A stretch of DNA of 56,050 bases from Maribacter sp. (lineage in GTDB: Bacteria > Bacteroidota > Bacteroidia > Flavobacteriales > Flavobacteriaceae). Under the pieces are notes generated by a model. The model was not told where the DNA came from and searched no databases. It worked only from the letters and a program-made list of their open reading frames with translations. The stretch's first letter is position 1. Every line of letters starts with the position of its first letter. The position numbers and the translations under genes are program-made. The stretch is from the NCBI GenBank assembly GCA_024228355.1, contig JAAETN010000333.1:1-56050 (forward strand). Reading direction: 5' to 3'. This document shows, piece after piece, positions 8,212 through 11,070 of the stretch.

Positions 8212-10752
8212 ATGAATGCCAATTATCTACAAACTCCCATTACCTATTTAAAAGGTGTTGGTCCATACCGGGCCAATAAATTGCAATCGGAGTTGGGCAT
8301 TGCAACATACCAAGACTTACTCAATCTCTTCCCAAACCGATATATTGATAAAACCCAGTACTATAAAATCGGGCAATTGCAACGAAGTAATGCAGATGTG
8401 CAGATTGTTGGGAAAATCATCCATATTAAAACCGTGGAACAGAAAAAAGGGAAACGGTTGGTCGCGACATTTGTTGACGAAACCGGAGAAATGGAATTGG
8501 TTTGGTTTCGGGGCCAAAAATGGATCCGTGATAACCTAAAACTCAATACACCCTATGTCATCTTTGGCCGTTGCAATTGGTACAGTGGTAAATTCTCAAT
8601 GCCGCACCCAGAAATGGAGTTGCTGACCGAACATGAGCAAGGAGTCAAAATACAAATGCAACCTGTATATCCTTCCACCGAAAAATTGGGTAATAGTGGT
8701 ATTACCAATCGAGTCATTAATAAGTTATTGCAACAACTGTTCGTAGAGACCAAGGGCAAGTTCATTGAAGCCCTTTCCGAAAGTATTTTACATGACCTGA
8801 AATTGATTTCAAAAAGTGAGGCATTGTTCAACATACATTTTCCAAAGAATCAGGAATATTTGGCCAAAGCCCAGTTTCGATTGAAGTTTGAAGAGCTTTT
8901 TTACATTCAACTCCAGTTGATTTCAAAAAAGATGCTCCGTAAGCAAAAGATAAAAGGTTTCAACTTTGACCAAGTTGGTGAACATTTCAATAATTTCTAT
9001 AAGAATCACCTACCTTTTGAACTGACCAATGCCCAAAAACGTGTCATCAAAGAAATCAGGGCCGATTTGGGCAGTAATGCCCAAATGAATAGATTGCTTC
9101 AAGGCGATGTTGGCTCAGGAAAGACCATAGTGGCCTTAATGACAATACTACTTGCCATTGATAATGGTTACCAAGCCTGTTTGATGGCCCCAACTGAGAT
9201 ACTTGCCAATCAACATTTTAATGGTATCAAAGCCTTATTGGACAATATTGGGGTGAACATAGCATTATTAACGGGATCGGTGAAAAAGTCCTCAAGAAAT
9301 ATAATCCATGAACAACTCGAAAGCGGTGAGCTTCATATCTTGATTGGAACCCATGCCCTCTTGGAAGATAAGGTGCAGTACAAAAACCTCGGCCTGGCCA
9401 TAGTGGATGAACAACATCGTTTTGGAGTGGCGCAGCGTTCCAAACTTTGGCATAAAGGAAGCCCACCCCAAACCCCTCCCAAAGGGAGGGTGAATGAAAT
9501 TCACCGCAAATACCAAACTGCAAAACCTTCTGCCTATCGTCTTTTAAAACAAAATCAGCTGGAAAGAAAAAAACAAACGACAGAAGCCGAAAGAATTCTA
9601 TGGGAGCAGTTAAAGACCAAACAACTGGGAGTAAAGTTCAGAAGGCAGCATGTAATTGACGAATTTATCGTTGACTTCGTATGCTTATCTAAAAAGATTG
9701 TAATTGAAGTAGATGGTGCATATCATAATACCCCCTCTCAATTAGAAGCCGATGAAATAAGAACTAAGATCTTAAAAGAATTGGGATATAGCGTAATACG
9801 GTTTAAAAATCAAGAAGTAATCGGTGCGATTGATTCTGTTCTCAAAAAAATACAAGCAAGATTGGATAGCCTCCCCTTCGGGGAGGTTGGAGGGGCTTTT
9901 CCACCCCATATCCTGGTAATGACCGCCACCCCTATTCCCAGAACACTTGCTATGAGTCTGTACGGCGATTTGGACATTTCAGTAATCGATGAGCTTCCTC
10001 CAGGAAGAAAAGCCATAAAGACTGTACACAGGTACGATTCCAATCGTTTAAAGGTTTTTGGATTCATTAGGGATGAAATAAAAAAAGGAAGACAGATCTA
10101 TGTAGTTTATCCCCTGATTCAAGAATCAGAAGCTTTGGATTATAAAGATCTGATGGATGGTTATGAAAGCATAGTACGGGATTTTCCCCTACCCGATTAT
10201 CAGATTTCGATTGTTCATGGTAAGATGAAATCGGCCGATAAGGATTATGAAATGGAACGCTTCGTAAAGGGTGAAACCCAAATCATGGTAGCTACGACGG
10301 TTATTGAAGTTGGGGTGAACGTACCCAATGCATCGGTAATGATCATAGAAAGTGCGGAACGTTTCGGTTTATCACAATTACATCAGCTTAGAGGACGCGT
10401 TGGAAGAGGTGCAGACCAGAGTTATTGCATTTTAATGACCAGTCATAAACTATCATCTGAAGCAAAAACCCGATTAGAAACCATGGTTAGCACCAATGAC
10501 GGTTTCGAAATCGCCGAAGTGGACTTAAGACTTAGAGGCCCTGGTGATTTAATGGGTACCCAACAAAGTGGGGTGCTAAATTTAAAGATTGCAGATATTG
10601 TTAAGGATAATGATATTCTTAAAACTGCTCGGTGGTATGCAATTATGATCTTAAAGGAAGATCCAACATTGGATACCCAAGAGAATCTGGTCATCCGACA
10701 TACCTATACCCAATTAATAAAGCATAAGAATATTTGGAATTATATAAGTTGA
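8212..10752 (+). CDS. recG: RecG helicase with in-frame DUF559 insertion
   Basis: ATP-dependent branch-migration helicase that remodels stalled forks and Holliday junctions. The N-terminal wedge (OB) domain spans about residues 1-200. Walker A GDVGSGKT is at 298-305, motif II DEQH at 399-402, motif III MTATPIPRT at 570-578, and motif VI QLRGRVGRG near 730. At 846 residues it is about 145-150 longer than usual because residues about 416-564, between motifs II and III, are foreign: a complete DUF559/Vsr-like endonuclease domain with Asp488-x10-Glu499-x-Asp501. The frame is open throughout, with no stop and no frameshift. No intein splice motifs are seen, so the product should be a fusion unless it is processed. 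Whether helicase activity survives is unknown. Divergent from the M1 peptidase gene. Confidence 0.95.
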   Translation: MNANYLQTPITYLKGVGPYRANKLQSELGIATYQDLLNLFPNRYIDKTQYYKIGQLQRSNADVQIVGKIIHIKTVEQKKGKRLVATFVDETGEMELVWFRGQKWIRDNLKLNTPYVIFGRCNWYSGKFSMPHPEMELLTEHEQGVKIQMQPVYPSTEKLGNSGITNRVINKLLQQLFVETKGKFIEALSESILHDLKLISKSEALFNIHFPKNQEYLAKAQFRLKFEELFYIQLQLISKKMLRKQKIKGFNFDQVGEHFNNFYKNHLPFELTNAQKRVIKEIRADLGSNAQMNRLLQGDVGSGKTIVALMTILLAIDNGYQACLMAPTEILANQHFNGIKALLDNIGVNIALLTGSVKKSSRNIIHEQLESGELHILIGTHALLEDKVQYKNLGLAIVDEQHRFGVAQRSKLWHKGSPPQTPPKGRVNEIHRKYQTAKPSAYRLLKQNQLERKKQTTEAERILWEQLKTKQLGVKFRRQHVIDEFIVDFVCLSKKIVIEVDGAYHNTPSQLEADEIRTKILKELGYSVIRFKNQEVIGAIDSVLKKIQARLDSLPFGEVGGAFPPHILVMTATPIPRTLAMSLYGDLDISVIDELPPGRKAIKTVHRYDSNRLKVFGFIRDEIKKGRQIYVVYPLIQESEALDYKDLMDGYESIVRDFPLPDYQISIVHGKMKSADKDYEMERFVKGETQIMVATTVIEVGVNVPNASVMIIESAERFGLSQLHQLRGRVGRGADQSYCILMTSHKLSSEAKTRLETMVSTNDGFEIAEVDLRLRGPGDLMGTQQSGVLNLKIADIVKDNDILKTARWYAIMILKEDPTLDTQENLVIRHTYTQLIKHKNIWNYIS
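9457..9902 (+). mobile_element. DUF559 cassette with hairpin-ended inverted repeats
   Basis: The foreign segment in recG is bounded by imperfect terminal inverted repeats. The left end reads GGAAGCCCACCCCAAAC followed by a perfect 7-bp hairpin (CCCTCCC-AAA-GGGAGGG, 9474-9490). The right end read on the opposite strand is GGAAAAGCCCCTCCAAC followed by CTCCCCGAAGGGGAG, also a perfect 7-bp hairpin (CCTCCCC-TTC-GGGGAGG, 9870-9886). The interior encodes one domain, in the same direction and frame as recG, with PD-(D/E)xK-like residues. No transposase is present. I infer a mobile or once-mobile cassette; the exact insertion points need an uninterrupted homologue. Confidence 0.75.
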
Positions 10753-11006: not shown

Positions 11007-11070
11007 AGATTTCTCCGCAGCGAGCTGCGGGGTTCCTTTAAAACTGTCATTCCCGCAAATGCGGGAATCT
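11007..11070. repeat. small double-hairpin repeat element
   Basis: Two perfect hairpins, CCGCAG-CGAG-CTGCGG (11015-11030) and ATTCCCGC-AAAT-GCGGGAAT (11049-11068), inside outer ends AGATTT and AATCT. The second hairpin matches the widespread 'ATTCCCGC...GCGGGAAT' intergenic repeats of many bacteria. It lies between the terminator and the 3' end of the DUF2911 gene, so it would be in that gene's 3' untranslated RNA. Together with the 98-bp element and the terminator it fills the 348-bp gap 10753-11100. Confidence 0.6.

Follow-up and report, generated by a model that had tools for sequence, protein, structure and literature searches.

A translated DUF559 nuclease cassette with hairpin ends in recG of Maribacter and in other conserved genes of Bacteroidia: a probable homing-like element

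On the usual view, conserved genes can tolerate selfish DNA that carries a nuclease because splicing removes it, as happens with introns and inteins. The element considered in this study appears to do without splicing. It is a cassette encoding a DUF559 endonuclease, inserted in frame in the helicase gene recG of a Maribacter sp. The stretch of DNA analyzed, referred to below as the window, is contig JAAETN010000333.1 of assembly GCA_024228355.1 (56,050 nt), and an earlier note on it, made from the sequence alone, had called attention to the insert.

Several described systems come close. Inteins with homing endonuclease domains are likewise translated in frame in conserved housekeeping genes, share a site across hosts and contain an internal endonuclease. 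The cassette differs from them in consisting of linkers and nuclease only. Inteins end in a C-terminal motif of His and Asn or Gln, followed by Cys, Ser or Thr, and no junction of this type was found within about 50 amino acids at the 3' junction in any of the 127 embedded cassettes described below, nor any intein family in a Pfam scan of RecG. A search of Rfam with positions 8900–10400 of the window gave no intron family, whether group I or group II, at E ≤ 1, only two sub-threshold matches. The homing endonuclease I-Bth0305I (PDB 3r3p) is called a mobile intron protein in PDB, whereas the cassette has no intron, and it is a long multi-domain enzyme with DNA-binding regions (according to the portion of PMC3943268 drawn upon here), whereas the cassette has no extra region. 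The same portion of that paper, the source of the family name EDxHD, holds that homing endonuclease genes were freed to invade conserved genes by association with self-splicing sequences.

Rickettsia palindromic elements (RPEs), as presented in part of PMC2229807, resemble the ends of the cassette in being short palindromes that lie, and are tolerated, in frame in conserved protein genes; a Gmk protein bearing an RPE is translated and active. RPEs measure 105–146 bp, that part of the paper mentions no nuclease in them, and their likeness to the present hairpins is one of description only. Lastly, standalone DUF559 genes such as NGO0050 (PDB 3hrl) share the domain (profile E-value 7.2e-30) but, in the rows listed, mostly occupy their own frames of about 115–180 aa, whereas the embedded cassettes lie inside host open reading frames (ORFs). 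An N-terminal extension (consensus YxTARPSxYxLLK) is common in the embedded cassettes and is also present in some standalone proteins, e.g., L063.

The recG gene occupies positions 8212–10752 of the window (plus strand) as one open frame of 846 aa. Besides DUF559, the Pfam scan recognizes in its product RecG_wedge, tRNA_anti-codon (OB), DEAD, Helicase_C and RecG_dom3_C. The earlier note was correct regarding the single frame and the positions of DEQH (399–402), MTATPIPRT (570–578) and residues D488, E499 and D501, as well as in recognizing a DUF559 domain. Its estimate of about 149 extra residues stands as to the existence of an extra stretch but not as to size: comparison with empty RecGs of the same genus places the cassette at 9457–9900 (plus strand), where 148 codons (416–563) replace three of the empty site, for a net gain of 145 aa. 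The nearest filled recG genes are those of M. arenosus, M. luteus and Maribacter metagenome-assembled genomes, and in both species, as in two other Maribacter metagenome-assembled genomes, the frame with the insert is open as well, which makes the sequencing error contemplated by the note very unlikely. The host codons are strongly constrained (ratios of nonsynonymous to synonymous substitution rates of 0.02–0.20 in the printed pairs where computable). Six matches to RecG were found in the genome from which the window comes (G000); besides recG, those listed are two stretches of a single 1133-aa ORF (40% and 37% identity), and among the matches listed the chimera appears to be the only RecG.

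Six genomes of this genus (G002, G003 and G005–G008) have an empty site, which reads LWHK-NEx-PPHILVMTATP; in them 34 aa extend from DEQH to TATPIPR. The site is filled in five, that of the window and G004 and G009–G011, with 179 aa over the same interval where measured. There was no RecG match in G001, which is 68% complete. Two otherwise empty relatives (L018 and L029) have 10 and 7 extra amino acids at the site, which are either scars or natural loop variation. On a tree of RecG hosts (44 rows, excluding two partial RecGs and making no use of second copies of the same locus), the filled or empty state changes nine times, at least seven of the changes being forced by supported branches.

Three Maribacter pairs combine a young insert with nearly saturated flanks, which shows that in these pairs the cassette reached the same site on its own. 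Synonymous differences per site (pS) in the RecG flanks and in the insert are 0.753 and 0.117, respectively, between the window and M. arenosus, 0.717 and 0.117 between the window and L038, and 0.769 and 0.179 between L037 and L038. The insert DNA is 94%–96% identical in these pairs, 30-nt bins of the flanks are 60%–93% identical up to the insert, and differences resume 3–15 nt beyond its ends. Other pairs are milder (flank/insert 0.582/0.441 for the window and L039, 0.584/0.563 for L043 and L044, and 0.539/0.606 for L081 and L084). These come from 20 printed pairs, which comprise only those with host pS below 0.66 or insert pS below 0.5.

A wider test considered 165 same-gene pairs passing a similarity filter, with host windows set 40 aa off the junction. 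The insert is the younger at p < 3e-4 in six of them: the three Maribacter pairs (p = 3.6e-26, 1.6e-26 and 6.7e-23, in the order given above), L041–L043, L004–L003, and the RecJ pair L145–L124 (p = 4.5e-7). The borders of the RecJ pair are less sharp than those in Maribacter because the linkers adjoining the hairpins differ. The pattern opposite to that of Maribacter is seen in two LeuRS genes, L182 and L187, with synonymous divergence of 0.728 in the insert against 0.363 in the host, which may mean that the cassette was gained independently, that the insert evolves faster, or that the host flanks were replaced.

The nuclease domain itself (9556–9864, plus strand; residues 449–551) belongs to DUF559 (PF04480) with an E-value of 2.3e-31 and a score of 108.3 bits, as compared to a curated cut-off of 20.6. 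Its acidic residues E460, D488, E499 and D501 fall in columns that are invariant in all 127 embedded cassettes. Taken column by column, E, D and E-x-D are complete (127/127) and H nearly so (126/127); these are putative active-site positions, the acidic ones being of catalytic type. The ratio of nonsynonymous to synonymous differences per site in the insert lies between 0.09 and 0.58 in all 165 pairs, indicating purifying selection on the nuclease. A structural model of the insert (predicted local distance difference test score, pLDDT, of 79) led Foldseek first to 3hrl, the Neisseria DUF559 protein (1.3e-7), then to 3r3p (3.2e-5); the match to Vsr (1cw0) had an E-value of 0.061 and a template modeling (TM) score of 0.55. 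The profile search gave 3hrl at the value cited above and 3r3p at 9.9e-8, and the best PADLOC model for the insert is one named homing endonuclease (2.7e-7). Profile and predicted fold both point to a catalytic fold homologous to that of the EDxHD/Vsr-like homing endonucleases, with I-Bth0305I the nearest solved enzyme of known role by both. The Pfam scan found only DUF559, MTES_1575 and DUF2726 in the insert and hence no DDE transposase domain and no Y1 transposase of the kind that marks IS200/IS605 or REP/RAYT elements, an enzyme acting in trans not having been sought.

The insert starts with AAGCCCACCCCAAACCCCTCCCAAAGGGAGGG (9459–9490, plus strand) and ends with an inverted relative, GCCTCCCCTTCGGGGAGGTTGGAGGGGCTT (9869–9898, minus strand). 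Within this imperfect terminal inverted repeat, each end has a GC-rich hairpin, the first at 9474–9490 (stem 9474–9480/9484–9490) and the second at 9870–9886 (stem 9870–9876/9880–9886). Both are recovered by the scan for imperfect hairpins described below, and the first also by the stricter scan. Both ends are translated, as the linkers SPPQTPPKGR and SLPFGEVGGA. A repeat search at the insert ends found no match, since the termini match imperfectly. When a 486-nt piece with both ends was folded as DNA, it did only modestly better than shuffled versions (z = −1.74; 4 of 100 as good), and both end hairpins were present in the centroid. Imperfect GC hairpins are frequent at the ends of the 127 internal cassettes (88 at the 5' end, 82 at the 3' end, 68 at both, 102 at either), as compared to 44 of 1655 control windows taken from the same host ORFs at a distance of at least 350 nt. 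A stricter scan for perfect stems found 37 of 127 at the 5' end, 31 at the 3' end and 17 at both, against 24 of 1694 controls; its 3' window was placed too far out for the RecG cassettes, and it is superseded by the scan for imperfect hairpins. At three loci (L052, L085 and L169), the nuclease is accompanied by additional translated copies of hairpin-type repeats, giving the impression that repeats have accumulated.

The cassette is not peculiar to RecG. Of 299 Flavobacteriaceae genomes, 106 contain sequence matching the insert at E ≤ 1e-10; by hand count of the matches listed, at least 32 genomes have such a match within a frame no shorter than 800 aa. A profile of the embedded cassettes, with up to 10 candidates scored per genome, finds a match at E ≤ 1e-28 in 111 of 395 Bacteroidia genomes. 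Of the 81 listed matches with at least 140 bits, 77 (from 61 genomes, hand count) lie in open frames of at least 350 aa. Once domain hits over 1e-10 and DNA duplicates were set aside, 156 cassettes were left: 127 internal (flanked on each side by more than 60 aa in the same frame), 17 long fusions of terminal or other kind, and 12 standalone. The search demands a shared frame, and the 127 internal cases are therefore uninformative on out-of-frame copies.

Hosts were named by applying NCBIfam to 29 representatives, with some matches falling below the model's curated cut-off. They include LeuRS, ValRS, RecG, MetH, AcsA, RecJ, MutS, TsaB, TsaD, IcmF, PurL and HutU, along with HsdR, an HsdM-like protein and an AddA/RecB-like helicase. 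A second site in RecG is occupied in L111. Pfam adds a SpoIIE-type phosphatase, a CoA-transferase and an M23 peptidase, and IleRS and guanylate kinase (Gmk) are presumably also hosts, going by a sequence motif only. Terminal fusions occur with HisF, HisD, HutG and an RluA-type synthase, and in L189 the sequence around the insert matches no named family. One methionine synthase (L088, the MetH ORF of G240) carries a DUF559 cassette in frame at each of two sites.

LeuRS is essential, and in all 17 genomes tested (there are 45 LeuRS rows overall) no frame other than the chimera exceeds the LeuRS cut-off among the matches listed, so these chimeras should work. As to a possible separate expression of the nuclease, within the 35 codons around the start of the core, 46 of the 127 cassettes have no Met and 14 have no ATG, GTG or TTG. 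Searches of plasmid and phage proteins gave 39 and 2 records, all with less than 60% identity, and identified no vector; a scan of viral contigs gave one match of 57% (L212).

Hairpins are also found without the nuclease. A strict pattern describing the 3' repeat, with the reversed pattern as a control, was run against 12 genomes and matched in six. Three filled Maribacter genomes have a single match apiece, located at recG. In the window's own genome the one match is at recG and the reversed control also has one; the control matches once in two of the three filled genomes because the site is nearly palindromic. G329, G416 and G534 have four, four and five matches, with none for the control, and no DUF559 hit was found in the 3-kb locus of any of these 13 copies. 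No match was found in G008 (whose recG is empty), G240, G273, G345, G378 or G506, even though at least G240, G273, G345 and G506 hold embedded cassettes. Four solo hairpins are translated in frame, within MutS (L201), GatA (L204), thymidylate synthase (L202) and an HsdM-like protein (L205), and two more (L199 and L208) are in frame in large ORFs without an NCBIfam match at 1e-10. Others are seemingly just 5' of a start codon (L200 and L209–L211) or in short frames (L203 and L206). Like RPEs, the cassette hairpins and the translated solo copies are palindromic repeats in frame in conserved genes.

A tree was constructed from 152 inserts (four shorter ones excluded), labeled by host gene through motif expressions and NCBIfam. 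The 33 labels change 45 times on it, as compared to a minimum of 32 and a mean of 99.7 when the labels are shuffled (none of 200 shuffles as low). All but two of the 24 inserts at the RecG site fall in one clade (98/96), whereas their hosts do not. The inserts of RecJ (three rows) and of MutS, TsaB, IcmF, HisF and Gmk (two rows each) also form a single clade apiece. To judge from the tree, insert lineages largely follow the host gene. The pattern is that expected of site-bound homing with occasional jumps, but target-specific transposition could yield the same.

I consider it probable, going by comparisons of sequence, that the insert is a homing-like, autonomous, translated but non-splicing selfish element of about 440 bp, a tolerated in-frame passenger of its host. 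A DUF559 endonuclease of the Vsr-like/EDxHD type, framed by two hairpin repeats that double as linker codons, would be made as a segment of the host protein. This endonuclease would most likely cut those alleles of its host gene that lack the cassette (in the present case recG, between motifs II and III), and repair templated by a cassette-bearing copy would then bring the element in, by homing rather than by site-specific transposition. Persistence would come not from intron or intein splicing but from landing in frame in a loop, probably on the surface, that tolerates a folded domain, the fusion presumably staying unspliced. Occasionally a lineage would jump to a new gene, presumably helped by the hairpin ends.

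A number of observations weigh against this reading. In 25 of the 127 cassettes the imperfect-hairpin scan found a hairpin at neither end; 10 of these are in RecG or MetH, and for L116 and L053, also among the 25, the stricter scan does find one. Clustering by host is imperfect, with 13 changes for LeuRS (45 rows, more than one site), five for MetH (17 rows) and five for AcsA (eight rows). The filled and empty labels are clustered on the RecG tree (nine changes, as compared to a shuffled mean of 14.9, with one to three of 500 shuffles as low), implying vertical persistence too. Correction for 165 tests leaves only the six pairs with a younger insert, most of the rest being near saturation, and in two pairs (L182–L187 and L182–L181) the insert is older or faster. 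The combination that marks a homing element, presence or absence at a site with transfer of the insert independent of the host gene, is accordingly clear in only six of the 165 pairs. Homing often leaves co-conversion tracts; in the three Maribacter pairs any such tract is at most about 15 nt long, a result that also fits precise transposition. Four of the 81 strong matches in Bacteroidia are in short, standalone-like frames (129–235 aa). A model of the full RecG with its insert, built from 14 sequences, is too poor (pLDDT 55.9, predicted TM score 0.31) to place the insert in the structure. Finally, the characterized EDxHD enzymes carry, according to the cited portion of PMC3943268, extra DNA-binding regions that are absent from the cassette.

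The alternative most deserving of attention, though I think it unlikely, is site-specific transposition. The hairpin ends would be recognition sites, either for DUF559 itself or for an enzyme in trans, and the shared sites would reflect target specificity together with the survival of in-frame, tolerated insertions, with no homing to alleles. This would account for precise ends without long co-conversion, for the enrichment of hairpin repeats at those ends, for the similar hairpins that lie, without a nuclease, within the frames of MutS, GatA and thymidylate synthase, for the pair of cassettes in the MetH ORF of G240, and for the shifts from one host gene to another along the tree of inserts. 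It is harder to reconcile with 22 of 24 RecG inserts forming one clade when their hosts do not, a fidelity to site beyond that of loose transposition, with the single match to the 3'-hairpin pattern in the window's own genome, or with an insert in which Pfam finds neither a Y1 nor a DDE transposase domain.

I give little credence to the idea that a chance insertion of the domain was followed by ordinary homologous recombination of alleles of recG and other genes, the nuclease being passive cargo. Housekeeping genes do recombine in bacteria, and host and insert have diverged to a like degree in many pairs, but the flanking recG is near saturation right up to the insert, the same kind of cassette is found in over a dozen genes, and the four acidic columns are invariant in 127 of 127 cassettes. 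Even less probable is domestication, in which RecG (and RecJ and MutS) would have gained a nuclease useful to the host and passed it on by vertical descent. The presence of repair genes among the hosts, the purifying selection on the nuclease and some vertical persistence are in its favor, while the same domain occurs in LeuRS, MetH, AcsA, HutU and PurL, is present or absent within one genus, and in several pairs is younger than its host.

Returning to the homing-like element, the earlier note's picture of a selfish nuclease cassette lodged in frame in a helicase core is borne out by the filled/empty polymorphism within the genus and by inserts far younger than their hosts in some pairs, and its phrase, an intein-like lifestyle without splicing motifs, agrees with the lack of intein C-terminal motifs (0/127) and of Rfam introns. 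The empty site that it proposed to look for in close relatives exists in six of them, and DUF559 domains inside unrelated ORFs proved to be numerous, with 127 internal cassettes in many host genes. It had allowed for vertical descent without repeat ends; related RecGs are mostly not carriers by descent, and repeat ends are present. The note needs amending in scope, since what it saw in RecG is a hairpin-ended mobile element spread through Bacteroidia.

I lean, if only slightly, to the broader view that there is a class of autonomous mobile elements of about 440 bp, made up of one nuclease domain and two hairpin ends, that colonize essential genes of Bacteroidota without a splicing device and home by tolerated in-frame domain insertion, with the nuclease-free hairpins as their miniature inverted-repeat transposable elements. 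No account of DUF559 cassettes in host genes was found in the open-access literature of PMC, a search that leaves subscription papers mostly uncovered, and for this reason novelty is provisional. On that footing, the cassette would be a new homing-type selfish element, with a fair chance of being a class of its own.

Some further features were seen in the window and its genome. A second palindromic repeat, CATTCCCGC..GCGGGAATC, lies 3' of recG at 11048–11069, and it has 12 matches in the same genome at two or fewer mismatches, with none for the reversed control. Within recG, positions 9038–9245 of the minus strand give a sub-threshold Rfam match to the Yersinia small RNA Ysr141 (42 bits; cut-off 196). 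Elsewhere in the genome (contig C196), two standalone DUF559 genes, L033 and L034, are about 3.8 kb apart, with a palindrome of the CATTCCTGC type between them.

What distinguishes the present case is that a nuclease-bearing selfish element enters core genes, LeuRS, MetH, RecG and MutS among them, and apparently remains in the protein. If this is true, then it would suggest an enzyme that mobilizes translated palindromes and a role for part of the DUF559 family. It would also represent a very small homing system and provide a natural catalogue of sites in essential enzymes that tolerate a domain of about 140 residues. Annotators of Bacteroidota should also bear in mind that a nuclease domain found on a synthetase or a repair protein may be a passenger.

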